Shown here: in pieces, positions 19,227 through 60,000 of the stretch
Position numbering within the stretch: position 1 is the stretch's first letter
Layout of the letters: every line of letters begins with the position of its first letter
The notes under the pieces: model-generated
Told to the model about the DNA's origin: nothing
The model's input: only the letters and a program-made list of their open reading frames with translations
Databases searched by the model: none
Assembly (NCBI RefSeq): GCF_963675165.1
Contig: NC_087389.1
Span: 6,468,621 to 6,532,620, forward strand
Length of the DNA: 64,000 nt
Source: Halichondria panicea
Taxonomy: Eukaryota > Porifera > Demospongiae > Suberitida > Halichondriidae
Direction of reading: 5' to 3'
Position numbers and translations under genes: made by a program

Positions 19227-22200
19227 ATGGATTCAGACTCACCAAACAGTAGTTTTGACAGATCTACTGTGACTGCTATTAAAAGGTCAAGAAACAGAGT
19301 CAAGAACATCCACTGGAACTCACTGCTTCATGAACCTTGGTGCTGTGTTCCTATCAGAAGGTATTAGAACCACATGCATAAATGATGTAGTTGTGCATAC
19401 ACAATCATGCATTTCTAGTTTATCTTAAGTATACGCTGTGATAGAGTTACAGTATTGCTTTCCCTGGTATTAGGATTGGACCTGAACCCACCACTGACCG
19501 CTTCATGGCCATCATGCACGGGCCTAATGAGCAAGCCACTCCTGGAAATGCTTTAGCTGTCGACCCAACACGACAGTTTGGTGCCTTTCAGTCGTTTGGA
19601 AACGCTTTCTTGAGCCGATTTGAGGCTTCATTTTTGCCTGCATGGTCCAGTCCAACGCTCATTGAAACTCCGGGAATATTATCTGGAGAGAAGCAACGCT
19701 TACATCGTGGGTACTTTAAATTTTTAGTTTTTAAGGGTCAAGAAAAGACGACCAAGTTCCAAGTGAGAGTTCAGAGCACTAATCGACTGATGTTGTCCCC
19801 CATTCTCAGTCTGTGTATACTGATACTGATATTCCGCTTACTGTTACAGTCAGGAGACGTTGAAGCAAACCCTGGACCAACACTTGGTAAGCAGTGTCTC
19901 CTTATACATGTATGCAATTGCTCATCAGCTATTCATAGAACATGCACACGTAACCATGTGTGTGCCATTATCATTTGCTTGTAATTTGTAGCCGAAATTC
20001 TGACTCTCGATGATTTGAAGTTTGTTTACAATAACTTGATAAAAGCCGCTGGAAACTGGTACAACCTGGGACTTAATCTGGGATTAGGCTATGAAACTCT
20101 CCAGAATATCAGAGATAAGCCTCAAGACAATCAAGCCAGTCTACGTGACATGATAGCTGCTTGCTTTAAGACTGGCCGTCTCACCTATTCTAAAATATGT
20201 GAGAGTCTCAGAGCACCATCAGTTGATCGGAATGATGTCGCTGCGACTATAGAGGGGACATGTACAGGTACCGTGATTATATGATATAAGGCTACTTCAA
20301 CCACATGCTATAAGATTAGTTATGAGTAGTCAACATGCAGTACTTAAGGTTACAGTATAGTGTTCCTACCCACGCATCAAACGCTCTATGAATATCATTA
20401 TTTTTTACTACAGTGGAGAATCACAAAGTGAGTCTCAGTCGGTAAATTTTAGCCTCGGTAGGCCAGGAAATATTGAATTGAAGCTTCTATCTATTTATAC
20501 GAAAATGAATGGGCAGGGCGACACGAAGAGAAATGTTGAATACAGTCAAGTGAGTTGCAGCTAGCCGTCAGTTTGTAGAGAGATCGAGCGGTACTTACCG
20601 TCTAGTTTTAGCTTTAGCCCTTCCGTATGAAGTTTTACAAGCTGTATCTCTTCGTGTCGCCCTCTGGAAGGTATTTATTTATATCAACAAGTCTTGAATG
20701 AGAGCTGCAAGTTCGTGCATCTTCATAATCATTCTTAAACAAAATAATAGCTGATCTTCATACAGATATATACAGTAGACTTCTTTTGTCCTGGAAGGAG
20801 AGAAAAAACTCACCCAAAAAACCCATGAACACTCATGATCAATCACTATACCGTAACCTTAAAATAACACATCCTGATTAGGAATGTAACATACATGTAC
20901 CAAGAGCAGAGACTGTTGAACTGCTAGTAACAGCAATTGCCTGCTCCTGCGTCATTACTTGATAGTAATCAGTACTAATTTGTTATGTTAGCAACACTTC
21001 CCAGAAACCGCACATGCTGTGATTGCGCAGTTCATACAAACCACAGACCACAGTTTACTTAACAGCACTCATTAATTAAATAGTGACGACAGTGATGACG
21101 CATGTCAAGGCAAATGCGGTTCCACGATTACTACAGCAGTTCAACACTCTTACTCTTATCTACTCTTGCATGTACTTAAATAGGTTAGTATTAGATGGAC
21201 GTGGGCCTATGGGCCTACTCGAGCTGGCTGATTTCACTTCGTTCAAATGATTGTCATCCACTGTTGCAGGCTGTGTGAGTTTTTTATTAGCATAGCAGAC
21301 TGAGAGAGTAGCTAATCAGCTAACCTTCAATCGAACTTCCTTTAATCTATGCACTTCTGTTCGTTGTGACATCATTCTGGAGACAACTCGATTGGCCTAA
21401 CATACTACCCACTCCCAAATACATTGCGAGTTGCAGTATAGTTGTTAATTAATGTATAATTATAATTATACATGTATAGAGTCCATGCATGCAGGCACAT
21501 CTTCACAAATAGTCTCATGAATCAGTCGCCCTTCTTTTGGGAAAACCGTCTGAGCACTCTTGTCTTGAGGTCAAAACCAATGGAATGTAATTAAATTCAT
21601 CACCTGTGTCAAATGCGTTGAGTAACGTGCAGTTTTTTGCCGGCTGCCTCCAAGTTCATCACCTGACTGCAATCCAGATTAGGAATTCTGTCTTGGTAAA
21701 TAAAACTGGAAAAGAGTGCTCAGGAAGGGCGGCTGATTCATAACTCGCAGGACTAGATGTTGACCCCTGTTCTAGTTGGCTATAGTAATGATCATAACAG
21801 TATTAACAAACCTCAGCCTCGGGCTACATTGGTAGATAGCTAGGGGCGGATCTAGTCGAGCACCGCCGCCCTCCTTGAAGGAGGTCGGGAATCAAGCCTA
21901 TCCACAGTTTTGTTCTGGCCTGTTACCAATAGTATCATGAATATCATTCATTCTATGTGGGTGCTAACCAATAGTGATGATTTTATTAAAGTGGGTGTTG
22001 GCCTCGCCTCTCAGTCAATCCAACGTGTGCAAAATTCACACGTGGTACAGTTGAGTGGGTGTGATCAATCCCCTTGAGATACTGCAATCTGATTGGAGCT
22101 GGTGGAATTGTTGGAATTCCAACAACAGAACAAAACTGTGGATAGGGCCCGACCTCCTTCCGGGCAGCGGTAGAGGGCGGCGGCGCCCAACTAGGGCGGA

Positions 22201-25200
22201 TCCAGGATTTGGCATGTTGGCTTTAGGGGGGTTCTTATAGTACTTCTTGTCCGCACAAAGCGCGGGCAAGAAGTTCACCTGGTACGCAGCGCCAACAATT
22301 TTGAAAACCACGCCACCATTAACATACCACGCCCATTAATTAACCACGTTCTCCCATTGATTTATAAACACAGGAGATATGGTTTTGTGACTAGAGGAGA
22401 GATAGTGGTGGCCCCCAGTGGAAAGACAGACAGTGGTGGCTGGTGAAGGAGACTTGGCTGTAGACTTGTAGAACTTGATAATCAATTTATTAATGATTAT
22501 ACATGTAAATATGCAGTGTCATTCAATATGCAGTGCCATGCACTCTCCCTTACCTGAAACTTTCCTCTTCTCTTAAACCAGAAGTCAAGGATTCATGGCT
22601 ATAGATATAATAATATTATCACTTGACCACCCTGCAAATCAATGTGGCTGTAATGCAGCCAGTAGCCAGCCCCACCCTCTTGCTATGTAGAGAGAACCAG
22701 CCCCACCCTTTTATTATGCAGAGAGAACTTTCTAGACTTTGTCACGACAGTACAGTTAGCTAGCTAGCTAGTATAAATACTAGCTGGAAGGGTAGTTTGT
22801 ACGAACCCAACGAAGTACCTCTGGATCCGCCCCTGATAGCCATTAACATAGGAAGAGTATACCTTAAGGTGACATATTTTCGCGTGTATTAATTTCTGCT
22901 ATTTCTGCGAATGAGAGTAAATCGCAAAAATTAGTACTCGCAAATAATTGGCCGCCCCCTTGTTTAATGTATCCAGATCGACATTTCGCAAAAAATTATA
23001 CCGCAAAATGTACAAAACTGTAAAAACGCAAACAAATCTACCTGTGAAAATATGTCACCTTAAGGTATACGCAAATCCAATACTGTACACGGGACGCATT
23101 CTGTCTGACCTATGTCACAAATACTTACTGTATTGTAACCAAAACCACGCCAGGTACAAGGCGCCAACAATAACAACGCTGATAATAGAAAAAGCTATCA
23201 GTGATACAGTATAGACTCTCGTTAATCCGGTCACCCTTGGGACCATGCAGCTTGGCCAGAGTAGCGAGGTGGCTGTATTTCAGAAAACAGATACCGGCTA
23301 ACGCAGGATAACAACGTGTATGCTCAGTAAAACAACGACGTCACAACCAACGGAAGTGGATTGAAGGAAGTAGATAGAAGGTGTTCGATTGAAGGTTTCT
23401 AAGAAAGAGCTTATAGCTACCCTTAGCCTGCTATGCTGACAAAAGACCCACAGCCTGCAACAGTGTGGATGACAATCGTCTAAACGGAGTGAAAGCTGAC
23501 AAGATTATTAGATGTAGTATTAGATGGCCATGCCCATCTAATACTACCTTTGGTGAAAGTCTGCTATACTACTGCTGCTGACTCTATCAGAAAGAAAATA
23601 GCTGTACATAGCTGCACAACAAAACTACAGCTCTGTCTCTAGCTAGCTAGCTAGCTCTGTGTATGACGTTCAATACTTTGTCAGGATATTTTCGTGATAA
23701 ATTCAGTATTATAGGACATTTTACGGGAACAAATATCCAATAATGTTGCGCATACGCAAGCAGTCAGTAGCAGGCCTTCTCTTCAGGGGAGGCCAGTGAA
23801 GGAGGCTAAGTTATACCATGAGTTCATTAGGAAGAGCGGTACGCATATCCAATAGACTGTATATACACGTGATGCATTCTGTCTGACCATAGATAGTAGA
23901 GGAAGGGGATTGGAAACTAGATCACGTGAACACAATTTCATGGGACTGTCCGTGTTAGACGGAAGCATTAGCAGAATGGCCGGAAGTAGACAGGAAGTAT
24001 ATAGATCTGTGTTGCGTATGGTTGCAGCCTCCTCTGTGGGCCCGGCCTCCTGCTAGTGAAGACATATCAAGGAAGTAGGACTCTGAGCTATGTGTGTATG
24101 CAAGCTTTTAGTTTTGAAATTCTTTTTTTTGTAGGTTCTTTCTACTCTGGAAATGTGTCCATGCTCTACAATTATACAATATAAAATATCCATGACAACT
24201 CATCATCTATATAACATTATTATGAACTGCAGACAAGCCATGACATTGTAAAGATACACGTACATTATGAACGATATGAGTCAGAATGTGTTATCAGAGT
24301 CCGGTCTTCTGCGTTTGGGTAACGGTTTGTGAAAAATTTTTTTACAGAACTTACCTGATCAACTATAATATATAGTGTAGAAGAGTGATGCTTTCACAAA
24401 TCTAATTAAACATTTAAGGCCAGGATTTTCATCACAAAAGTTCAGGGAATCGATGGATCTCAATCAAAATAGCACAGCACGCTGGTGAAGGTAACTTAGG
24501 TTGAAAGAACTGGAGTGATGAGTTGAGAGAGGGGGTGTAAGGGTATATTCAGAACGTACTGACAAGTTCCAAATGAGCTGGCACTGAACACACGAGGTGA
24601 CGATGACATCAACTCTTGGCAGCTTGACAATGGTGAGCACGTTCTTGATGGCAATTAGTTCAACACTGACTTGGCAACCAAGAAGTGGAGAGATTCAAGA
24701 GTTGCTGGTCAACTCAGGTAAAGGCTGATGAGAACAGACGGGGGATGTCTGCTGCTTCTTGCTTTTCTTTCGCTGAAAAAAAACGCAATTTCTGACTTCC
24801 CATGCCCATTGTACAATCACACCTGTGTGGGAAAAAGAGCAACATGTCATTTTCACACTTTTTCATTGAGGCAAAATTCTTCTTTCGAGTTAGTACAGCT
24901 ACTATGTAATAGCTATTCTCATAGAGTAAAGCTAAAAGAATCAGAAAATTCACACTAAAACTCAATTGTGAACGGTTAGATCAGGACACCCCACACAAAG
25001 AAGGCACCCCATTCGACCTATTTCACAACACTGGAGAACAACAAAAAGCTTACATATCAAAAAAAGGGGCTATCCTGTTAAAGCTCAAGTCAAGGAAACA
25101 GCCAATGTGCTTACTAGCTTCTAAAAGCGTATCAGAAACTAGATTCTCCCCAAACAGTGCTAAAAACAGGTAAATGGTGAGTCATAGCTAACTTGTAGCT

Positions 25201-28200
25201 CAACAGGTATATCTTTTTACTTAAAACGCTCAAAATATTGTTAGTATAGATTACTACTGACATTAAAGCTCTTAGATAGTCGTTTCTTACCTTTAGAACC
25301 GAGTAAAACTCTGAAAAGTCTTTAGCCCACTCAAAATTAGTCAATTCGCGGTCTAACGCGGATAGACCTCAGCTCTCAATGTATGATCTATAGCGCACGT
25401 GATCTAGTTTCCAATCCCCTTCCTCTACTATCTATGGTCTGACCTATGTCACAAATACTCACTGTATTGTAACCGAAACCACTTCTAGTACAAGGCGCAA
25501 ACAATAACAACGCAGGAAAAGTCATGAAAACATCAGTGATAATCATCACTAGTGTTACTTTGCACATTTATGACTTCATGTTTATACAACAGCGTGTGGT
25601 TGTGAGGTAGTTGGACAACAGAATGCTGACTATGGAGTTGCGTACTCTTCCTAATGAACTCTATAGACTTGATAATACTGATTCTGTTATATAAGCCTTG
25701 TGTAATATCTGTTCTATAGACATGTCCACATCCTCAACGAGTCCTTCAATTGGCGACCATTCTTTCTCTCCTGTAAGTTTTGTTATGCACTGCCCTCATA
25801 GTGATATGATAGGCATGACGTTTGTATATTGTAGATTTAAATTATAGGTTCATTGTCATCTAAATACACAATGATAAGAGGCAGTGCAACTCATGCTACA
25901 TTTTTTGCTCAACAGGCTAGCAATCCAGAAACTTCGAATTCAATCGGTAGTGAAGTAATATTAAGACAAAAAAAAGCTGACTACCACCCAACAGTAGGAT
26001 CAGGGTTTCTAAGGGGACCTGATTTTCCTGTTGCACAGGTTGGGATCAGGAATACTAGCCAAGGTATATCTTGTACTGTATTAAAACATTTATTCGGCCT
26101 GGAATCGAGGCTAGTAAGAACATTACTGTCACTACACTATATACACATTCATTATATGCATGTGCAGGCGGCAATGAGGCAGTAAAAGAGAAAATCAAGA
26201 ATACCAACGAAGTAATTCAAAAGGTTATATCAATAGCTAAGAAGCTTAAATTGCCCACTCATCAATCAGAGCTCGAAAGAATCTCTTCAGCGTTACTATC
26301 TGGCAAAGTCCAAATAGGATTTGTTGGCTTAACTAATGCTGGCAAAAGCGCAACTGTTAGTTCCTTTATAGGCTCACCTTTTCTCCCATCAACGCTTCAA
26401 AGGCAGACGGTCGGCTCAATCCGTGTTGTACATGATCCAACATGTACGCATGGAGAACTTTTTGGCACAAGAGATGGCTTGACGGTTTCTCTTGCATCTG
26501 GTATTTATTCTGTTCACTCCCGTATTGAGGAATTGAATACCAATGACCGCATTAACGATATTCGCTACTCTGAACTCGTTCTTTATGCGCCAGTCACACT
26601 TTTTTCAGAGCTTGAAGAGAATTTTGCTCCAGAATTTCTAGATATGGGTGGCAGCTGTGAGAACATTCCTAGCCAGCAAGCAATTATTGCACAAAAAACA
26701 GCTTTAAAAAGCCTAGCAGCCATCGTGCTTGTTGTCAGTGCTGATGACGTATCTAAGACAACAGTGACTGACCTTGTTGAAAATCTAAAACAAGTACATC
26801 CTGGCCTAATGGAGAAACAAAGCAGAGTGCTAGTGCTCATTAACAAATATGATATGTGCTACGACGATGAGAATAAAGGATCATGGGGGCCTGACAGAAT
26901 TCAAAAGGAAATGGCAAATCACATTGGAGTGCCAATAGAGCAGACAGTGTGCTTCAGTGCCAAATATGCACTACTTGCACAAAAATGGCTACGAGATCCT
27001 TCTGCTGTAACCCAACGCAAATTTTTTGAAGAATATTTTTTTTTACAATCCACACCCGAAAAAGATTCCATTGCAATTTGCTCTTTGGAAAAGCCCACGC
27101 AAGAGAATGTGAAGAAACTAGCTGAAGGTCTTGAGAAATTTAGCCGGTTCCAAGAAGTTAAAACAAAGCTTCAGTGGGCACTCTGTGTTAATGGTCGTGA
27201 AGTTCTTTTGGATAGTGCTGTGGACAATGGTTGTGCGGAAGTGTCAAAGATGGAAGAAGCCATTAGTCATAGAATACAAGAAATTGACATTCGAGGGAAG
27301 GAAAATAAATTAGAGCAGCAAAAAGCTCAGACAGAAAAGGTTGAACAATTCTTTCAAAGTCAGACATTATTCCCAAAAACTCTTACCCAATTTTTTGAAA
27401 TTCAACTAAACGCACTTGTTGCAACATTAGAGAATGACATCAACATACAATCTTCTTTCAAAGTATCACATCTCAAAAAAAATTATGATAGCCAGCAGCA
27501 AGCATTGAAGCATGTACTGGATGCCCGCAAAGACATGCTTCAAGAAGGAAAAGAACAAATCTTCAAAGCTTGGAAGTACGGTATCTTACAAATGAAACAA
27601 ACCTTGTTGGCAAATCTGAAACAGTTACTACAACACTTAAAGGAAAAAGTTGCCTCAGAGAATATCACTGATATCTTCAACCTCAATGGTGTGGAACCGC
27701 TTAAATTGCTAGAAACCATTTCTGAATCGTTTGAATCTGTTGAGCAGCAACCAGACTTTTCACAGTGCACAGCTATAGGTGATGATGCTCTTAAAGCTGC
27801 TATTCAACCTTGCACGGAGACTAGGCAGAGAAGAAACGAGCAAAAGACAACAACGCAGCGGTTTTTGATATTCCCCACTGACCTCGGATACAATGAGGTG
27901 ATTAATTACCAGGTTACTGTGTTCGAAATAAACGCTGAGAACCTTCTTAGAGCACTTCACCAATTTGCTTCATTCTGTTCAGATCATGTTCGTAACTCTC
28001 TGTTGAAGGTTTTGAATGATGTAGCTAACAAGTTATCTCAAGCTCTTTGGGATGAACTGAAGCAGTTATCAGAAGAGCCGATTACATTGAAAGAGAAAGT
28101 TCTTCAAAAATCCAAAAAAGAAGTCGCAGAATTAGAAACTGAAAACAAATTGCTTGGAGAAGCGAAAAAAACACTATGTGAGCCACCGTCTCCTACCGGT

Positions 28201-28418
28201 AAAAAGAGGGAATTCGAAGAAGAGGATGATGATGTCATAACACCAGTTAAGAAGCTTAAGAAGCCTGGTGAGTGCGTAATAATTATTATAGGTATGTATG
28301 CACGAGACTGCATGCAACAACACCACATATATAATTATCATATTATCATGTCACTGTTGCTGTTGTTTCCTTAATAATAGCTCCTAAAAAAGCAAAGCGG
28401 TCCAAACGCCGACACTAA
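19227..28418 (+). CDS. EHD-exon / 2A-like / Death domain / dynamin-like GTPase protein
   Basis: Exons 19227-19360, 19474-19886, 19992-20267, 25720-25772, 25916-26063, 26168-28267 and 28381-28418 join in phase to 1053 aa. Order: novel N-terminus (aa 1-45); EHD-family fragment (46-125) with RIGPEPTTD and ETPGILSGEKQR but no P-loop; hydrophobic stretch and 2A-like SGDVEANPGP ending at Pro180; Death domain (about 184-265); Ser/Thr linker; dynamin-like GTPase with G1 GLTNAGKS (395-402), G3 DMGG (500-503) and G4 NKYD (567-570); a long helical region; and a Lys/Arg tail (PVKKLKKP, PKKAKRSKRRH) resembling a bipartite nuclear signal. Known 2A motifs make the ribosome skip a peptide bond before the final Pro, so two products are expected. 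ATG 19790 would give a shorter form starting just before the 2A segment. Death domains mediate innate-immune signalling. The 5.4 kb third intron is the weak link: exons on its two sides could belong to two genes, but phase and linker fit one. Confidence 0.7.
19474..19714 (+). other. captured EHD-family exon segment
   Basis: The first 80 codons of exon 2 match the EHD ATPase family from the switch I region (RIGPEPTTD, MHGPNE, PGNALAVDP) through FGNAFLSRF to ETPGILSGEKQR and RGY. Homology starts exactly at the splice acceptor and stops at GY. It lacks the upstream P-loop and the rest of the G domain, and the family's DTPG reads ETPG. It therefore cannot be a working nucleotide-binding domain by itself. 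Confidence 0.85.
19790..19879 (+). promoter_or_regulatory. 2A-like translational recoding / signal sequence
   Basis: ATG 19790 opens a leader with a hydrophobic core (SPILSLCILILIFRLLL) followed by QSGDVEANPGP; the core D-V-E-x-N-P-G-P is at 19856-19879. It satisfies the D(V/I)ExNPGP consensus of 2A stop-go peptides. In sea-urchin and sponge immune receptors similar N-terminal 2A segments are reported to act as both recoding site and secretory signal. Here an EHD-containing extension may precede it. Activity is inferred. Confidence 0.8.
19992..20267 (+). other. Death-domain exon
   Basis: One exon, phase 1 at both ends, beginning four residues after the 2A proline. It encodes a six-helix Death-fold sequence: LTLDDLKFVYNNLIKAAGNW, LGLNLGLGYETLQNI, ASLRDMIAACFKT, LTYSKICESLRAPSV. 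The NW...LGLxLGL pattern is typical of Death domains. Symmetric phase would let it shuffle as a module. Confidence 0.8.
21518..21745. mobile_element. MITE with AATCAGTCGCCCTTC ends
   Basis: ATGAATCAGTCGCCCTTCTT with GAGCACTCTTGTCTT is inverted at the right (AGAGTGCTCAGGAAGGGCGG, CTGATTCATAA). A solo end GGGCGGCTGATTCACGAGAT lies at 53200. Confidence 0.65.
21842..22833. mobile_element. nested elements with GGGCGGATCCAG termini
   Basis: AGGGGCGGATCTAGTCG (21842) pairs with CTAGGGCGGATCC (22191) around an inverted core (CCTATCCACAGTTTTGTTCT / AGAACAAAACTGTGGATAGG). A second span, 22193-22833, runs from GGGCGGATCCAGG to CTGGATCCGCCCCTG. The termini resemble those of non-autonomous hAT-type elements; that assignment is from memory of terminal sequences only. 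No transposase is seen. Confidence 0.55.
22859..23069. mobile_element. MITE with ATACCTTAAGGTGACATATTTTC ends
   Basis: The left end is inverted at 23047-23069 (GAAAATATGTCACCTTAAGG). The interior has ATTTCTGCGAA/TTTCGCAAAAA motifs. An internal open frame of 88 codons looks like chance. Confidence 0.8.
23870..25455. repeat. 1.6 kb inverted-repeat structure
   Basis: 23878-23930 (GTCTGACCATAGATAGTAGA, GGAAGGGGATTGGAAACTAG, ATCACGTG) is inverted at 25397-25440. Near 23817 and 25640 ATGAGTTCATTAGGAAGAG is also inverted. The spacer (23931-25396) has no recognisable coding sequence and shows no transposase motifs. Confidence 0.65.
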
Positions 28419-29352: not shown

Positions 29353-32300
29353 TTACACATGAGATGACTTGAGGCTAGTATTGTCATCAGCCTCCACTAC
29401 GGTGTCTGCTATGCTAAAATCTGAATCTGAATCACATTCTGAATCACTGGAGCTTTCGATGACTCTGTTCATTGATCTTGGTTGCCACACTGTACCACGC
29501 ACTTTGCCTTGCAGCTTCTTAGGTTTGCGTGGGTCTATTTGCTTGAGGTCAGGCACACTAGGTCGCTGCTTGTTCAGAGCTAATGAGCTATTTCCAATAG
29601 AGTTCTGTCTATTGTCCGCCATCATCAGAGGAGGGGGATTAATGCGGAGATCAGTGGCAGACTTGGCCTGTGATTTAGGAGCGACTGGTGGTTTGGGAGG
29701 AGCTACTAGCTTAGACTGAACACCAGGGGCAGATTGGTTTCTACTCATTTGTTGGTTATTCATGAACACAGGTCCACCGTCATTCATAGCCACCGCTTGC
29801 ACTTGATCTTGGAACACCTCAAAGGTTAGATGATTATCAGTAGCTGCTGGTGTCAGCATATTCTGTAGTGCCTCTAAATCTTGAATATCAGTCTCAAACT
29901 GTCTCTGCAGGTCATCTAATGGCCAACTTTCTGATGAGACTGTTCCATCATAAGAATGACTAGACCCACTGTTCTCTACGGGATGCTGTAGTGGTAGCAA
30001 GTGATGGTTGGGCAAAGCTTGTGGCATGTGTGTAGCAGCAGCTTGTTGTTGTTGTTGTTGTTGCTGTTGTGTGGGCTTAATCTGAGACATTGGGATTCGC
30101 TCAAATTTCCCCTGAGCTGGAATTGTTCCATTGTCGTTAAACCCATTCTGTAGGTTCCTCCGAGCTGTTGGTTTAGGCTTCACTACAGGTGCACTATATA
30201 CGGGGGAGGGGGAGCGGGTCATGTGATGTGGGGAGCTGGTCATGTGACGTGGAGAGCGGGTCATGTGATGTGCCTCCGTTTCAACTTGTGTAGGAGATCG
30301 AATCTCAATTGGTGGATAGTTCATACGTGAAGGGTTGCTATGGTGACGGCTAGACGGTTGATTATATAGAGGTTGATTTGATATCGGCTCTTGAGTGTAT
30401 TCAGGTGAGTGTCTGAACTCAGGAGGGGGTGGGAGGTGGTTGCCATGGGGAACGGGACTACTCATGGGCGGGGGGTAATGGTTGACTGGTCCCCTACTCA
30501 CATGTACGGGTGGTATGGAACTGTATTCAACAGCATGAGGATCGTCAATCGAACTTGAAGATTGTGTATCGTCTAATCGTCGATGTGGTATTTGAGGTAG
30601 TTGTCTGCTCTGTATTTCATTAGGAGTCATTGTGCCCAGTTCCCTGCCAACCGGGGCCTGTCTAACATTGTGAGTGTTGGCAGCGGAATGGGACCTGGGT
30701 CGCATGGAATGGGGATCCTCAATATGCGGTTGTATATGTCCAGTGGAATGAGACTGATGACCGTGGGCTGAATTAGAACGCGGAGGAAAATCTTGCAAGC
30801 TCATTCCGTTCATCATGTGATGCTCTTGTGACTGGAATAGCTGTTCTCGTACAGGGGAGAGGGGGCCGTTACGCTTCCTGCCCCCCAGATCCACCTTCTG
30901 GGGGGTGGGCACACCAGCCGAGGTGTGGGAACTTCTGTTGGAGCTAGATCTGCTGACTGGGTTGTTAGTCATGTGACCTCGAGTGTTCAAATGATCGGCC
31001 GGGGTCCACGAATCGTTTGTCTCTTGTGATAGGCCGTAGGATTGTGGAGTGGGCGTTTGTGGAGTGTAGCGATCAGGGGATTGTGAGGAGAGTGGAGGGG
31101 GCGTGTGCACACGGTTGAGGGTATCGAAAAACTGCTGACTCACTCCTCCGCTAAAATGACGAACGTGTTGTTCTTGTAGGTCAAATTTTGAATTACCTCT
31201 GAACTCTCCCCTTTGACCTCTAAACTCTCCATTGGTGCTCCCTAATTCACTGATTGGATAGTCAGGTTCATCCGGCGGGTACATGTGCGTGGGGTCATTG
31301 GGGTCATCGATAAAACTGTTTTGTAGTCCGTTAGCTGTCATATGAGCTCCATCTGGTGTCATTAGTGCTCTTGGTGGGTAGTGCCCGTCATTGTGGGTGG
31401 AGTCAGTGTACGTGAGTGAGGGGGCGGTGACTGAGTGGGCGGGTCGTAATGAGTTCATATCAGCATAATCTGTAGTCCGTCTGCTAGGAGTCGGTGAACT
31501 ATGAACCTTGATAGACTTGTTCCTGCAGGTTGGGGGAAATAGTGTGAAGCAATTTTGTGTACTTGCAAAAAAGCTCTTATTAACTTGAAAATCTGAACAC
31601 AAATTACGGGCTCTCAACAGTTGTACCAAAACGGCTGAATTCGAAAAGCTATAGCCTAGGATTTTGACTAAACAGAGAACTTATAAGCGCACGATTGCTG
31701 AGAGCTATTGAATGCATCATTGGATAATCTATTACATGTACAATCATAGTGTAGTAGCGTGTAGACGGGTGGCTTACAGAGCGTTGATCTTCTGGCGATG
31801 TTGGTACTCACTGAACCCGCTGGACCCCCCACTGAGACTGGAGGCACTGCGACGACTTGTTACTATGTGGGGGGTAATGATAATTATTAATCCACCTCAC
31901 TTAATTGAATATTAGTCCACCACTAGCTACCACTATATATAGGCTTGTACACTAGTCTACACACTGCAGGTCAATTAGAGTAGCATTTCAGCTTTTACAT
32001 TTATTTTTCATTTCAAGTGAGGTAGGCCGGGTTGCAGAGCATCACCTGACGTGCCATGATAATCACACTGACATGATTGACTCACTGTATATCTTGCCCT
32101 TGTCAGAGCCACATTTCCAGCAGTACTTGCAACACACGAAGGTGATAGTGATCATGAGGCAGGACATGACCAACACCGTCCCCACTGCCACCACCGCTAT
32201 AAACCACACCTCCTCATAGATGGGCTTCACATCTGTAGGAGAGAGTGGGTGTATAGTACATACAATAGTGGTGAGTGAGAAGCCTTGCAGTATTGTTAGC

Positions 32301-35300
32301 TATAATAATAATTTAAGCATTGAGAAATGATACAACCTTGTCATTAGAGCTAGCTACTATAGACTCACTTGTTAGTCCTTGAGGGAGGGTAATGGTGATC
32401 ACTGCGGGGGGGCTCTCATCACCCCCCACCACTACACGAGTCAGGCTGAACATGTACATACTTCCCGGGAACAGCCCGGTTATCACCAGACTAGTGACAA
32501 CTCCACTCTCCACTCGTCCCAGTGTGTGGTCAGGATGTATGTATGTCACTATATAACCCGTTGCCCCCGGCGATGCTTCCCAGAATAGACTAACGGATGT
32601 GGAGTTAATTGATTGGCCGCTTAAACCTGTCGGAGGAGTGAGGGGAACTTGTACCATCACCATGGTAACAGCAGACCATACACCACGGCCAACAGATGTG
32701 TGTGCTGCTACACGGAGCTCATAGGTCGAAGTACGAAGGTCGGAGAGGGTGTGCTGAGTGACTTCCCCCACATTAATACTTAACCACATCCCTTCCGATT
32801 GAACTCTGTACTCTAGCGTATATGTAGTTAGAGGGCCTCCATATGCTGTACAAGGAGTGGGCGGCTGCACGGAAATAATTACATCAAAAATCCTTTTTTG
32901 GTGTTTATAATTATAACAGCTTACCCCCCAGGTTGCTGTGATTGTACCTTCACCTCTGTCGGCAGTAGCTCGTAGGTTAGTGGGCGGGGCCAGTGGAGCT
33001 GTGGGGGGTACATCACCATGGTAAAACACACAAACAAACGAACAACAACAACCCCTTTTACCAGACATCTTTATAGAGCGGTAATGATATTCATGCACTG
33101 TGTTCCATGCAGGGGACGTGAATACACACGCACTGCACACATTCAATACTTAGATCATGGACAAATGAGGTGTCGATGGACATGAGGTGTCGATGGACAT
33201 GAGGTGTCTGTGTCCAACGCACACTAAATCGAAACCCACTTGTCATTGGCTAACTAGAGCTAGCTAGCAATAATGACATCATTTGTATCCTCAGCAATCT
33301 ATATAGTTACCGGGACTATAGCTCACTAAGTGGGATCTAATAATTATAATGAAAGCCTAGATAGTCTATAGCTAGTCTACACACTGCATGTCAATTAGCT
33401 TTGCTTTTAATACAATGCAAGTGAAGTGAAAGGGTTGCACGTGCATGTACATGTGCATGTACATGTACATGTACATGTACATGTACATGTATGCACGACC
33501 ATGCAGTGTGTGTAGAGGTCTAGATCACCTGATGGTTGTGTGCGCACCATCCCCACACTGGAGGACACGCTCTGGTGCTCGTAGTTGAAGGCTATCACAC
33601 GAAACTGGTAATCATACGACGGCACTAGGCCTGTCACCATAGCAACAGTTGCCGTGGGATCAACGCCGGAAACAGCAACGCTCCAAATAAAGGAACCGGG
33701 GCAGAAAGAATTTCCACGATCGAGAATTTCGATAGAGTAGTTACGCAATGGTAGTCCTCCGTCAGAAGTGGGCGTGTCCCAAACAGCAGCGAAGGAAGTA
33801 GTTGTGAGGGTTGTGTGGAGGGGATTAAGTGGAGGGGAGGGGGGGGAGGGGGGACCTATGTGGGGGGTAATAATAAACACTGTGTGGGGGTATCACATGA
33901 TATAGTCTCACCCCCCACAGTGATGACGGATGATCCAACGGTGTACCGGATATCACCCACACCAGCGACACGCAACAGAGCCACACACGTGTACACTCCG
34001 TTATTACTCGACTGGAAGTTGGGGATAGACAGAGAACCTGTAATGATAGGAAGGGGTAGTGAGTGTCCATATCATGGTGGAGGGAGCGCTATCCATATCA
34101 TGGTGGCCATGGCTAGACTCTGGGCCCAAGATCAAGTAATCATATTTAAGCATGCCATTTTACAGAGCTATCCAAGAGCCACAAAATGTATGCTTTACTA
34201 TTGAAATCTGACAATTCAAACTAGAGTTACAGCCAATCAAAGTTAGCTATAGCTATATAGCAGTACCTGTGCTCGTTGGTTGTGTGAGAGGACTGTCCTC
34301 TAGTAACCACTGATAGGCCACTGAGTCCGCTGAGGTAGACACTATAGAGCACTCGAGTGGGACTTCTGTGCCTTGTGGAGGTGTGAGGCTGCCAGCAGGG
34401 GACTCTGTCACCATGGGAACACCTAGGGGGGTGGTGTAATAGTATTATTAGATAATCGATCAGAACGCAAATTAAAGGATCTCAAAGGTAGCTACCAAAA
34501 ACGCCTGAATTTTAAAGAAAAATGCAACGCTATAGCCTTAATTGTTTTTGTCGAAATTACTGAATTTCATGATTATACATACATTGAAGTATGGTAATGA
34601 GGAATGAGTTATAGTAGCTGTGAAAATGCCTCCTACAATATTCAGTGTCTCTTACCAATCACTGTGAGTTGCTTGGGCGGAGTGTCTAGCTGTCCCCCGA
34701 GGTTGGCTGCCCTGCATGAGAGGAGAGAGGTGTCCGCCACAACAGCAGAGGAGATAGTCAGTGAACCATCACCAGGGAGAGGGGACACACTGTACTGACC
34801 TGCAGCCACAAGGGAGGGCATAATGGTGTGCATGAGCATATACCTAGCTTGCTTCTGTGCAATTGTATGATGTAGTGCAGTATATTTGACTGCCCATAAC
34901 AGAATTGTCCAATTTCACAACTAAAATGTATTTAGTAGCTAGAGCTATACAAGATGATAATAAGCACATAAAGAGCTATAATTCCTACGTACTGTAAGAC
35001 CAGGAGTGGACTCACCAGTGATGGAGATGGGAGTGACGGATCCAAAACGATACCAGGAGAAGGTGGGTGGGGGAAATCCCTCCGCCTCACATGACAGTGT
35101 CACAGACGCCCCCTCAAACACCAACAGTGCCTCAGGCATCACTGTAAACACTGGACCAACACCTACACACACACAGTTGTGTATAGTGGGTAATTTTCTC
35201 GTTGATGTACATTTTAATATGAACTACCCAGTTAAAAATGTTATATTCTAAGTCGTAGAGCTCAGAATAGTGACCTAATACTTTTAGATTAATGTTCTGA

Positions 35301-37366
35301 ATACGAAAATACAACTTGTCCCCCATCATACGAACATAACCTGCTATACTGTACAAGGACTAGTACTTACTGACTGGAACGATGAGTTCGTTGTCACTGT
35401 CACAGCGACCAATCAGACGCTGGCACACCTCACACTGGTACACGCCCCCATTCCCCTCACCCACACCACTGATACTCAACACTCCCTCTGTCACCGTTAG
35501 CCCTGTTGTCGTTGTAACAGACTCTCCATTCACTCGCCAGATCCACTCTAGTGGAGGTGTGCCGTCTGCTGAGCAGCTGAGGGTCAAAGGTTGAGTCAAA
35601 TTAGCCGCAGTCTCTGGGAAGGAGGATGTAATCTGTGTGGGGTCTGTGTGTGTGGGCGTGTGGTGTGGGAGGGAATAATTTTATTGCTTGTTCCATTTGA
35701 AAGGTCTCTTTCTAAGCAAAATCATAAAATCGTTGAAATTGATCTACGGAATTCAAAGTTATATGGCAGCTGAGAAAGAGCCCCTCTAATTATTGTGATG
35801 CATGTGGGGGGGGGGGGGTTGGTGTGATTGGGTTGTTAGCTGTACACAGAGGTGTGTGTGTGTGGATATGACCTCAGGGGATTATGTTTCAAAGTGTGTG
35901 TGGTTCTATAATGATGTCACATTAGATGCTGTAGGCAACACACCGTCTTCTGGTGAACTGACTGAGATTACAGCCTCAGCTCTATAATCAACTAGTGTGA
36001 ACATTCCTGAGAAGCTATGTAAGCCAGCTACCCAAACTTGCCCATCCCCAGGGACTGCTGTCATGGCGCCAGTCAACTAGCTATACTGGTTTAGGCCTGT
36101 CACAAGTTGATCTAGCTGATACAGATATGGGAATAATGAGAGCTATTACATCAATTAGAACATAAATTATGAGCTCTCAAAGATTGCTACCAAACGGCTG
36201 AAATTTGTAGAAAGCGCACACAAGACCTAGCCTTTGCTGTTGCTGCATACCACACTCAACCCACGACTATTTGTACATGAGGTCTAGTTTCGTATCGCAC
36301 TCCTACACAACATTTAGGCTGCCCTAGTTGCATACCACACTCAACCCACGACTATTTGTACATGAGGTCTAGTTTCGTATCACTCCTACACAACATTCAG
36401 ACTGCCCTAGTTGCATACCACACTCACCCACGACAATGAGACTGCCAGAGGAGGTAGCAGTGATGGGTCCAGTGTTGCTGGTCTGCACTGCTCTACACGT
36501 ATACTCTCCACTGTCTGTACTGCGGACATCAATGAGAGTGATGCTCCACCCATTAGCGCTGATTGTGACACGCCCACTCGATGATACCTGAGTGCCATCC
36601 TTGAGCCAGGTCATGACTGGAGCAGGTCTATATATAGTGGGTGGACAGTATTCAACAATTGTAAAGGCATAATTAATATGTACATAGAAATAGTGGGAGA
36701 TATTAGAACTGAAGAAGAGAGTATAACTGGCTGGATGAGATGAGCTATAAAATTGTACAAACAGTCTCATTTCATAAAGGCCATAATAATCATTATAACT
36801 ATTCCACAATGCACACAGACAGAGAGAGTGGAGGATGACACACCACCACCCACCTTCCAGTGGGTAGACACTCGAGGCTGACAGTCTCACCACCTGACAC
36901 AGTTTGTACTGCCACAGGACCCTCAGCAATGGACACCTCACGAAACAAAGCACCTGTATGTAAGCAGTTATTATATAATTATACAGACAAAACACCTGTA
37001 GGTATAGGTATATAACTAGTAAGCAGTTATATATATATATATATGTACAGACGTGATTCACAGACCTGATCCTGATCTGGTGAGTAGGTACTGAGCTGCC
37101 ATAGCTTGTGTACTACCAGTGATGCTATTGGTCACACTGCACGTGTACAGTGTGTTGGAATCACTCAAACTGTTAAAGTTAGCAAACCACAGCCGGCCCG
37201 TTTCTAGGGACACGCCCACTCTGTTGTTAGGAATTTGTCCGGGGGTGAAGGAGGTCCAACTGATTTGTAGGTACGAAGGAGGGTCAAAGTTCAAACAAGG
37301 GAGAGATATGTGGTCAAAATCAACCACTGAAACAGATTGTAAAGAAGTACTGGGAATAGTGGTGAC

Positions 37367-56300: not shown

Positions 56301-56985
56301 CTCCCAGTGGACCATCCACACTGTCTGGCTCTGTGGGACATCATTGTGAGAGCTTGAACAAGTTACGGGCTCAGTAGCTACCAAAACAGCTGAAATTAGG
56401 AACAAAATGCACGGCCCGGCCTATACAATGGCATTAGTGCCCACACCACCCACCCACACACACTACACCCACACACTACACCTACACACCCACACACACA
56501 CTACACCCACCCACACACTAATAGCTAATTAACTCACCCACGGCTTTAGTGCCCACACCACCCACCCACACACACTACACCCACACACACACACACACAC
56601 ACACATGCTAATTAACTCACCCACGGCTTTAGTGTCAACACCGTAATGTGTGAAGTGAACCAGAACATGGTATGTCCTAAAGAGACCAGCCTCAGCGTCA
56701 TCATCAAACTGTGCCTCCTTGACTATGGGGTTGTCCATGAGGGTCCTGAAGTCACATAGTGTGTCGTGTAGAGCACCAATGTCCAGGTTGCCATGTACTT
56801 CCGTCACCAACTCCTTGGTCTTAGTGTTGGTCTCCTCAAGCATGGTCTCAAGTAGCTCTATAGCTGAACCCTTCAACTTGATACCCTAAGAGTGGGGCCG
56901 GGGGGTACATAAGATACACACACAGGGGGGCGGGGGTACATAAGATACACACACACACACACACAGGGGGGCGGGGGTACATAAG

Positions 56986-57034
<49 letters not shown>

Positions 57035-60000
57035 GGGCGGGGGCACATAAGATACACACACACACACACACAGGGGGCGGGGGTACACACACACAGGGGG
57101 GGCCGGGGGGCACACACACACACAGGGGGGTACACTAGTTCACGTACATCGATAATCCTGTTGTCTGACCTCTGGGGGTCAGCAATGTCAATGGCCAGTA
57201 TATGATTGAGTGCCTCCACTATTTGCCTGTTGTGCAGAACCACTTGATTGGGGTAGTTGCCAACACACATCTCAATGAGTGTCTGGAGGATGAGGTGCAC
57301 AAGGTCCATGGTCTCAGCTGTGATGTCAGAGTAGAAGTGCTGGAGGAACAGAGCCACTTCCCCGACCACATTAATGGTCACTATATTATCCTTCTGTTCT
57401 CTGAGATAGTTCTGCATGAGACGATATTGTCCATCGCACATAAGCCCCAGGACTTTCAAGGCTAGCTTCACGTGATGTGTGTCTCTGAATACTAACAGAT
57501 CAACAGTGTCCTGGTCAACAGGGCCCTATGTACGGAGGTTATATAGTGACAGTTACTATGGTTACTAATGATGTCATACCTGTGTGGCCTGTATTGTCCC
57601 ATCCTTAAGAGTGGACAGAGCCTATAAATATAATAATATTACTTATACGTGGGCGGGACTGTACCTTGAGCTCAAACACTTCACTGACTGCTTTTGAGGA
57701 GCTCCGAGCACGTTTGGGGGCGTGGTCTTCATGTTTGGGGGTGTGGTCTGCAGTTCTGACTATCAAGGGTTCGTCGGGTTCATCTGGTAAGAAGGGGGTG
57801 GGACGGGCGAGGGGCTAGGGGAGGGTCAAGCAGTAATATCACATGTAAGTTAGTTATTATTATACCTTGAATGCCACTATGGAGTCGAACGCATCATCGT
57901 CCATCTCTATGGTAACGGCAGTCGTCAGCTTGCGTGGGCGGAGGCCCTGATAAGTGGGCGTGACAGCGGACGAGATCAATAGAGAACTAGCGTCAGTTTG
58001 CAGGAACTGGTTTTCCATAATCCGATTATCCATTTGGGTCACTAAAGCCCTCCGCTCATTGAAGGTGATGGCAGCGTTTTGTAGCAAGCTCTGGATGGTT
58101 GAGAACAACCTCTCCTCTCGTGTGTCCAACAGGTGCTTCATACCCTTCTGTACATGAGGGTTGCCTGAGAAGAAGATTGTCTTGAGGAAGGCGAGTACTT
58201 CACGGACAATGGCGTCATTCGGATGGGATAGCATGGGAACAACACGCGACACAGCGTTGTCCATGTTCTGTATAGCATTCTGTAAGGGGTGAACTCTGAC
58301 CCCACACCTCTTGTGGTAATCAGGGGGAGAATCTTCCATTAGCTGAGAGTCTATATGAACCACTTCGTTGTGTATGATGGCTCTCATGATCTGGAGACAC
58401 TTGATGTCCAGTTGGTCCTGTCTCTCTCGTTCCTTCTCACTCAGACTGCCTAGCCCGTTGAAGGAGATCTCTAGTTGCCGTAGCAACCGCTCTACGCTGG
58501 GAGATACCTCACCATTGGATCTAGTCAAGAAATAACAAGTTCAAATATATAAGCACTATACACAAGTCAAGTCAATACAAGCACAGGGGCTTTAAATTGC
58601 CTATTTTCGTGGAAAACTAAAAATGTCCATTATTAATAACTGTTTGATTATTATGCCACACTTATCAGTAAAACAATAATTGTATGTAAACTACATGAAG
58701 TGGGTGTGGCAAGTGGTTGCCTAGGTTTAGGGTTAGGGTGGGTGTGGCTTATGGGTGCCTAGAGTGGGTGTGGCTTACCCGACGAACAGAGCAACGTGTG
58801 CTTGGAAGGATGGTCCGAGGGGTAACCACTCGTCACCTGGCAACTGGTGCTCTTTGTCGAGGTAATCGCTATATGGACCCTCGTACTTTGACCCCACTTG
58901 AACCCTAGCGTCATTTTGACCTTCATACGAGAGCTGATAGTTGCTCACAAAGCTATTGAACGATTTGTTTAGTTCCAACTCGACTGCGTATATGTCCTTA
59001 TAAGTACTCATAGCTGGTGTTTCAAACGCCTTGCAAGGCTTCGTGCGGAGGTCAAAGGTCGCAATGGCGGCCTCAGAGGGTGTAATTGGTAGGAGGCCAT
59101 TAGTACGAGCCAATATCGTGAGCACAGTGCGACGGTAGAGTTTCATGTGAGCATCTGTTGATATGTGGAGGGTGATGGGGTCACATAAGGTCTGTGGAGG
59201 TCAAGGGATCAAAGGTTAAAGGTCATAACAAGGTGACACCCTCACCAGTAGAGCTGTGAGGACCTTGCTAGTCACAACCAGTTGCCGGGGACGATTGTGC
59301 GGCTCAAAGAAGTCGTTGTAGAAACACTTGACAAGAGGTAGCATTCCGTCAGTCAAGTACAAGAGCACGTCTAACAGGGGTCATAGTACACTAGGGTCAA
59401 GGGTCAACCCACCTCCTCTTACCTGGTAGTAACCTCCCATCTTCACCAGTGACATTAGCAAGGTTGCGTAACTCTGTGCGTGCATGACGTGTGCCTTTAG
59501 GGCTCTTCCCAGCAGAGTAACGTCGTGAGGAAGAGCTCATACTCTGGCGCACGAGGGCCACTTCTGATGCTGGCAGTGTTTTCAAGGCCACTCCAATATT
59601 GTTGAGCATGTCCCCAACAGTATCCAAGTAACCCCAAAACTCTCTGCAAGAATGAACCAAAGGAGGAGCTAATGTAACAGCCTATAATACATTGAGGCAA
59701 ATACTTGTATCTCTCAAATGTGAACTTTGATGATACCATTTGAAAGGTATATCTTTCTAAGCTTTCAGAAAATCAGAAAATCGTTGCTATTGGGTTCACG
59801 GGATTCAAGTTAAAGCATGCAGTTGAAAGAGTCCCCGAACCATTGATTAAAGGTACATGTACAGAGGCTTCACTTACTCTGAGTGTGTGAGCAGAGCAGC
59901 ACCACTCGAATGCTTGTCCCCTCCAGTGCTCATGTACACAGACACTAGGAATCGTGCAAATGGTCTCTTCCTTTCATTAGTGAGGTCTTGAGAGTTGAGG

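Follow-up and report, generated by a model that had tools for sequence, protein, structure and literature searches.

A putative stop-go gene of the sponge Halichondria panicea that seems to carry a dynamin-like GTPase in the place of NACHT

Background

The 64,000-nucleotide stretch of Halichondria panicea DNA analyzed here, hereafter the window, corresponds to C13:6468621-6532620 in a genome of 131 Mb and 39 contigs. Its + strand holds, at 19227-28418, a putative gene in which a fragment of an EHD ATPase, a hydrophobic leader with a 2A-like (stop-go) motif, a Death-like domain and a dynamin-like GTPase follow one another. The closest known systems are the sea-urchin NLRs with 2A signals and the zebrafish protein CARD-Gbp4; guanylate-binding proteins (GBPs) are members of the dynamin superfamily.

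In Strongylocentrotus purpuratus, 2A-like signal sequences occur in 14 of 87 NLR entries, and recoding divides the products between the exocytic route and the cytoplasm, a case of dual targeting (PMC4981915). Our locus resembles these NLRs in having a signal-type leader with D(V/I)ExNPGP ahead of an immune-type protein; there, however, the 2A is N-terminal and the protein is an NLR, whereas here the 2A is a predicted one, an EHD fragment may precede it, and a dynamin-like GTPase comes after the Death-like domain. Zebrafish Gbp4 is a GTPase with a C-terminal CARD, and its inflammasome function needs GTPase activity (PMC4932187). Our gene is like it in fusing a large GTPase to a death-fold domain, and unlike it in two respects: in the fish protein the CARD is C-terminal, the GTPase is a GBP and the text available mentions no 2A, while here the Death-like domain is N-terminal and mitofusins and a bacterial dynamin-like protein are nearest by profile.

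Among demosponges, Dysidea avara has expanded Death-NACHT-LRR (NLRD) genes, and transmembrane NLRs were also noted; unlike what we describe here, the main text of that report is free of the terms GTPase, dynamin and 2A-like (PMC12909245). A preliminary description of the window had placed 2A-like motifs before immune modules in both sea urchins and sponges: the former is documented (PMC4981915), but for sponge NLRs no such paper was found. Among the papers listed in searches of the open-licence literature, judged by title and start of abstract, none dealt with a protein combining 2A, Death and dynamin or with a 2A in sponge NLRs. Two candidate precedents were discarded, as '2A-like' is a gene name in PMC5890393, and the passages available from PMC5009743 concern other matters than sponge 2A. 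EHD ATPases, finally, are the source of the fragment in exon 2, but unlike them the window gene has neither a P-loop nor an EH domain. Both halves of the idea have precedents.

Our main conclusion, to which we give a probability of about 0.6, is that the window would carry one gene of the 2A-Death family, a family often NLR-like (Death-NACHT) in this genome, with a dynamin-like GTPase in the place of NACHT. It is based on sequence features: an intact frame, the 2A motif, the hydrophobic leader, the Death-like exon, the GTPase motifs, and an exon order kept in two paralogous loci.

Results and discussion

An uninterrupted frame of seven exons

Seven exons bordered by GT and AG, 3162 nt in total, join in phase into 1053 codons with a single terminal stop (Table 1), and the join initially proposed is thus borne out by exon borders and open frame alike. 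The donors fit the consensus at 6 to 8 of 9 positions. Exon 2 encodes QSGDVEANPGP, of which DVEANPGP (residues 173 to 180, the P of NPGP being residue 180) conforms to the D(V/I)ExNPGP motif of 2A and 2A-like stop-go elements. Directly before it, at residues 151 to 169, hydropathy averaged over 19 residues reaches its maximum of 2.52, a value shared by 150 to 168. The front end seems to be a stop-go element with a death-domain-like exon, as in many immune-receptor-like genes of the same genome, and the dynamin-like GTPase seems to occupy the slot of the usual receptor module, NACHT.

An alternative acceptor for exon 2, at 19453, would also preserve the phase and, as in EHD, give the reading SIAFPGI; it was rejected because three of four copies on C14 (L007, L008, L009) have a one-base deletion between 19453 and 19474. 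In intron 3, tblastn (E ≤0.05) gave no NACHT-type, CARD-like or terminal second-Death exon, and 10 open reading frames scanned out of the 18 listed (at least 60 codons) gave no Pfam match. The intron also contains a 48-nt inverted repeat (23881-23928/25396-25443), 98% complementary and with 1467 nt between its arms, which is perhaps a DNA transposon.

Table 1. Exons and parts of the putative gene, in window positions
Feature	Position	Strand	Remarks
Exon 1	19227..19360	+	In-frame ATG at 19227; 44 codons + AG
Exon 2	19474..19886	+	EHD fragment, then leader + 2A
Exon 2, first part: internal EHD fragment IGPEPTTDRF..QRLHRG	19474..19711	+	No P-loop
Exon 2, second part: hydrophobic leader MLSPILSLCILILIFRLLL (residues 151-169) + 2A-like QSGDVEANPGP	19712..19886	+	Predicted break before Pro180
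Exon 3, Death-like domain	19992..20267	+	Phase 1 at both ends
Intron 3, 5.4 kb	20268..25719	+	Between Death-like exon and exon 4
Exon 4, 17 codons	25720..25772	+	Holds ATG at 25722
Exon 5, linker	25916..26063	+	3' part kept in L083
Exon 6, dynamin-like GTPase + long C-terminal part of unknown fold	26168..28267	+	
Exon 7, basic tail PKKAKRSKRRH + stop	28381..28418	+	

The 2A-Death front end in the genome

The codon pattern of DxExNPGP was found at 116 sites in the genome, versus a single site for the reversed pattern. Neighborhoods were counted for 100 listed sites of these 116, and the Death list comprised 150 scored matches of 539 candidates, so that counts of Death near 2A are lower bounds. 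For at least 50 of the 100 sites, the first 1 kb downstream includes a same-strand Death-like exon, with none upstream and none on the other strand; at 10 kb, the figures are at least 52 downstream versus nine upstream, and again none on the other strand. On C14, such an exon lies within 1 kb downstream of at least 32 of 33 listed 2A sites. A search for NACHT-type exons, using a query from a C14 relative, yielded 38 matches at E ≤1e-20 (150 of 217 candidates scored). On the same strand and no more than 5 kb downstream, such exons follow at least 30 of 49 Death places in the C14 cluster (one upstream) and at least 21 of the 33 listed C14 2A sites (none upstream), and the cassette is therefore NLR-like. 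Among the remaining 12 C14 sites, two are the 2A sites of GTPase-linked loci.

The frame after Death contains GAPGGGKTT in L027 and L044. In nine fetched loci (eight places, as L013 and L026 overlap) the acceptor of the NACHT exon reads ag followed by AATCCAA, in phase 1, and phase 1 is common to the Death donor, the NACHT-exon acceptor and the GTPase acceptor. In the window itself, the NACHT expected of an NLR was absent from 18.5-29.5 kb in a search with one C14 query. Taken together, the genome-wide pattern supports a view of the 2A-Death part as a front end shared by a large family with many NLR-like members.

Other 2A sites have different surroundings. Four fetched ones (L048, L050, L052, L064) precede a cysteine-rich PHD-like stretch, and we take them to be probable retrotransposons of the non-long-terminal-repeat (non-LTR) type. 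At C14:1223710-1225864 (L010, L023), a 2A site and a Death exon are accompanied by a second-Death exon whose stop lies immediately upstream of an EHD gene, an adaptor-like arrangement in which no NACHT was seen. A second 2A cluster, C5:2732563-3093412 (L069-L074 fetched), has Death-like exons and a shared N-terminus, MGI(S/T)VELWRARIGL.SGGRG, and a third, C2:7744905-7837774 (L053-L063), has the leader HHLLLQCGDVESNPGP, several copies having a Death-like exon about 0.7 kb downstream.

Paralogous loci with the same order

Exon 6 has eight matches in the genome: the window, C14:1343792 (55%), 1249894 (56%), 1306847 (55%), 1389703 (61%, 464 residues) and 1387910, and two distant copies on C7. The piece at C14:1387910 holds two stops and may be the broken continuation of C14:1389703. 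Two of the C14 loci, L083 (C14:1306501-1315500) and L084 (C14:1249501-1259500), contain part of exon 1, EHD and 2A, Death and GTPase in the order of the window and on one strand; the succession first read in the window, from EHD piece through 2A and Death-like domain to dynamin-like GTPase, is thus repeated in both. The remaining exons are kept unevenly: exon 5 is represented by 71 nt at 87% in L083 and in L084 by only 23 nt, neither locus yielded exon 4, and exon 7 recurs in L083, while the sequence fetched for L084 stopped short of its place. L084 has three Death exons, and L083 has one further frame of unknown domain between Death and GTPase.

In L083, L084, L076 and L079, an exon that we call 'CARD-like' as a working name lies before the GTPase; it was not found in the window. 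Two C14 copies scanned gave no Pfam match above chance, and the best PDB profile matches (a TFIID subunit, 0.2; ICEBERG, 0.3; a guanylate-binding-like zebrafish protein, 0.46) were not significant. C7 was considered as independent support for the association of 2A and GTPase and rejected, because a metalloprotease-like frame intervenes (read by eye). This locus (C7:4953801-4959800, L085) displays a 2A, a CARD-like and a Death-like exon ending in a stop, the metalloprotease-like frame HEFGHALGLEHEHQ, and a distant dynamin-like GTPase.

GTPase and Death-like domains

Exon 6 contains GLTNAGKS, a threonine, DMGG and NKYD, the motifs G1, G2, G3 and G4 of the dynamin superfamily. The window copy matches Dynamin_N below the cut-off of 27 bits (25.6 for the whole protein, 16.7 for exon 6 alone, 20.2 in the genome search), while four copies on C14 (29.7-44.1 bits) and two on C7 (56-61 bits) exceed it, and all six aligned copies match at E ≤1. 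In this alignment G1, the G2 threonine, DxxG and NKxD are conserved, with DMGG in the window versus DMPG or EMPG in its three C14 relatives. Searched against PDB profiles, the GTPase matched mitofusins (best E 5.2e-5) and a bacterial dynamin-like protein (5.6e-4), both over about 60 positions around the P-loop, with GBP5 at E 0.13. No stalk or GED family was among the 25 families shown of 30 matched for exon 6, and a structure model of its N-terminal part was not used (predicted local distance difference test, pLDDT, 40). The basic tail pointed out in the preliminary description is present, and exon 7 is conserved in L083 and L076 (PKKPKPSKG..); a nuclear role for it is a guess.

The Death-like exon of the window scores 12.1-12.4 bits, versus a Pfam cut-off of 22.6. 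Its relatives match Pfam Death at E ≤1 in six of ten cases in one set (A1) and in eight of 13 in another, and a profile of 13 relatives matches the Death domains of FADD (E 4.7e-4, positions 6-89 of 90) and PIDD (8.4e-4); three designed TPR chains rank above FADD in the same search, without any passing stretch. A single-sequence structure model has six helices at low confidence (pLDDT 60); its top Foldseek matches are PIDD (E 1.1) and FADD (E 2.6), neither of them significant. For the below-cut-off Death and Dynamin_N matches of the window gene alike, support comes from the relatives.

The EHD fragment and the start of translation

Within the genome, the EHD piece of exon 2 has two EHD genes as matches, 92% identical over query residues 6-90 and 90% identical over 6-91, although a Pfam scan of the whole protein gave no match for it. 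The EHD-type family PF18150 matches the genome at C14:1221651, C14:1282501 and C6:5107951. The first of these matches lies in a 510-codon frame of which the window holds only the middle, from after the P-loop to HRGY. The piece announced ahead of the 2A is supported, and refined to an internal fragment without P-loop. Moreover, the final 35 nt of exon 1, together with the beginning of intron 1, match the 5' region of the EHD gene C14:1221651 (68 of 78 columns).

Among the 87 matches listed for exon 2, coverage begins at the start of the EHD piece in the window and four C14 copies (L006-L009). C14:1453388 (query 51-166, four internal stops) and L023 look like degraded remnants, and L024 has a different EHD piece. 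Between the window and the four C14 fragments, the ratio of nonsynonymous to synonymous changes (dN/dS) is 0.28-0.41, and the maximum likelihood (ML) omega is 0.35 for all five copies and 0.40 for the four C14 ones; indels after the acceptor preserve the frame, with two compensating ones in the window. Gene conversion from the parent could mimic such constraint. The leader and 2A evolve at 0.91-0.97 (ML 0.96). At C14:1282501-1283502 (L002, L011), we also observed an EHD frame with the C-terminus SLAGKKRTHEETSSG, followed by a PKKPKPFKRH-like exon, where a GTPase-family tail replaces the usual EHD end.

Methionines occur at positions 1, 56, 59 and 151 up to residue 180. The fused gene might be real but be translated from M56/M59 or M151, leaving exon 1, and perhaps the EHD piece, untranslated. 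We regard this as rather unlikely, although M151 sits at the beginning of the hydrophobic stretch and a start there would make the 2A peptide an N-terminal signal as in sea-urchin NLRs, without the EHD piece. Exon 1, which partly resembles the 5' region of an EHD gene, gives evidence of both kinds: L009 shares an in-frame ATG with the window at the equivalent place and L007 is open with methionines, but two of the four C14 EHD-2A copies (L006 and L008) have no in-frame methionine there. Against a later start also stand the EHD piece itself, with its kept frame and low dN/dS (0.35), and several C14 relatives that lack a methionine at the place of M151. This alternative differs from our preferred reading in the N-terminus only, and is otherwise compatible with it.

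One gene, two genes or a decaying chimera

Whether the GTPase is read from the upstream exons can be approached by comparing its copies. Two close copies without a listed 2A or Death within 15 kb upstream have a TATA-like stretch and what seems to be a start exon, ATGGCGAGTCAAG followed by GT (MASQ; read by eye), whereas the three copies with 2A-Death upstream, window included, lack the MASQ ATG and show a 6-nt alignment gap there. All five close copies therefore agree with a GTPase read from upstream exons when the cassette is present, keeping in mind that they are related, that one looks interrupted, and that they do not represent five independent events. In the interval between Death and GTPase of the three linked loci, tblastn (E ≤0.05) with one NACHT and three second-Death queries gave neither type of exon. 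This circumstantial evidence supports one fused gene.

Several observations weigh against that conclusion. As duplicates, the linked C14 loci stand for a small number of independent events. Of the five close GTPase copies, two lack a listed 2A-Death in their neighborhood, and one of these two (C14:1389703) looks interrupted. On C7, two separate genes seem to be present, one with the 2A and one for the GTPase. In the window, exon 4 offers an ATG (25722) and was not found in either linked C14 locus, which makes a separate GTPase gene possible. The Death-like part is also open to doubt: all relatives scanned fell short of the Pfam cut-off level (the best E, 0.011, was in A2; a C7 exon had 17.7 bits), and in A1 the winged-helix model UBR1-like_wing matched more relatives than Death did (8/10 versus 6/10) and with a better E value (0.0035 versus 0.012), though it matched only 2/13 in the second set. 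It is because of the scores below cut-off and of this competing model that we use the name 'Death-like'. Finally, dN/dS is 0.65-0.70 for the GTPase (0.91 by ML) and 1.6-2.0 for the window Death, for which decay is also conceivable.

If there were two neighboring genes, a small EHD-2A-Death gene would end in intron 3 and a GTPase gene would start at the ATG of exon 4. The 5.4-kb intron 3, the exon 4 acceptor just before that ATG, and the two GTPase copies with a seemingly own start exon would fit such an arrangement, as would the Death-second Death frame which, beside the EHD gene C14:1221651, stops before the EHD start (read by eye). It nevertheless appears unlikely: the MASQ start is missing from the three linked copies, tblastn found no second-Death exon in the window or the two linked C14 loci, and the phases fit throughout the exon chain of the window.

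The substitution rates also bear on a decaying chimera, whose exons would have been joined by duplication in an unstable cluster and would have no function. The high nonsynonymous rates of the window Death and, by ML, of the GTPase could be explained in this way, and C14 does contain chimeric EHD pieces of several kinds, and the CARD-like exon seen in the C14 relatives was not found in the window copy. Yet the 1053-codon frame is intact despite 0.45-0.48 synonymous changes per site between the GTPase and three paralogues, and G1 to G4 are kept, so that decay strikes us as quite improbable. Positive selection on Death was considered in turn and is not claimed, because across 29 family members the mean pairwise pN/pS is 0.80 (bootstrap 0.63-1.00) and the ML omega 0.74.

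A possible stop-go switch

Under the one-gene reading, many ribosomes would skip the Gly179-Pro180 bond at the 2A. Skipping would give, on the one hand, a peptide of EHD fragment and leader with a C-terminal hydrophobic tail, probably membrane-held, and, on the other, a free Death-GTPase of 874 residues able to act in the cytosol or nucleus; non-skipping ribosomes would yield a full-length form routed to the membrane or secretory path. The Death-like domain would recruit the GTPase into a death-fold signaling assembly, or let the GTPase nucleate one, with GTP-driven oligomerization as the trigger by analogy with zebrafish CARD-Gbp4. Of the initial interpretation, the order of parts and, circumstantially, the single gene stand; what changes is that the 2A-Death part now appears as the front end of a large family, NLR-like in good part, and that the GTPase takes the slot of NACHT.

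More tentatively, and with less than even odds in our estimation, the leader-2A-Death cassette may be a phase-1 plug-in module placed before NACHT receptors, Death-Death adaptors and dynamin-like GTPases, where one stop-go element would set the membrane-bound versus free share and the GTPase would have lost its start codon under the cassette.

Other features of the window

Tail to tail with the stop-go GTPase gene, the - strand has a 775-codon open frame at 29353-31680, with no Pfam match at E 0.01. Farther along the same strand are one or several adhesion-type genes with fibronectin III and immunoglobulin exons (32316-37112) and an RIH_assoc domain (56851-57525, E 2.3e-19) of an IP3- or ryanodine-receptor-type gene. 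The segment 47677-48491 is repetitive, open in several frames on both strands, and minisatellite-like.

Conclusions

If our reading is true, stop-go translation serves in an animal genome as a front module that can be reused for immune-type proteins, beyond NLRs, and there would be a second route, besides the fish CARD-GBPs, by which a death-fold-like domain came to be fused with a dynamin-type GTPase. To see what the 2A contributes, the five close GTPase copies, of which some carry the cassette and others do not, are a natural set to compare.

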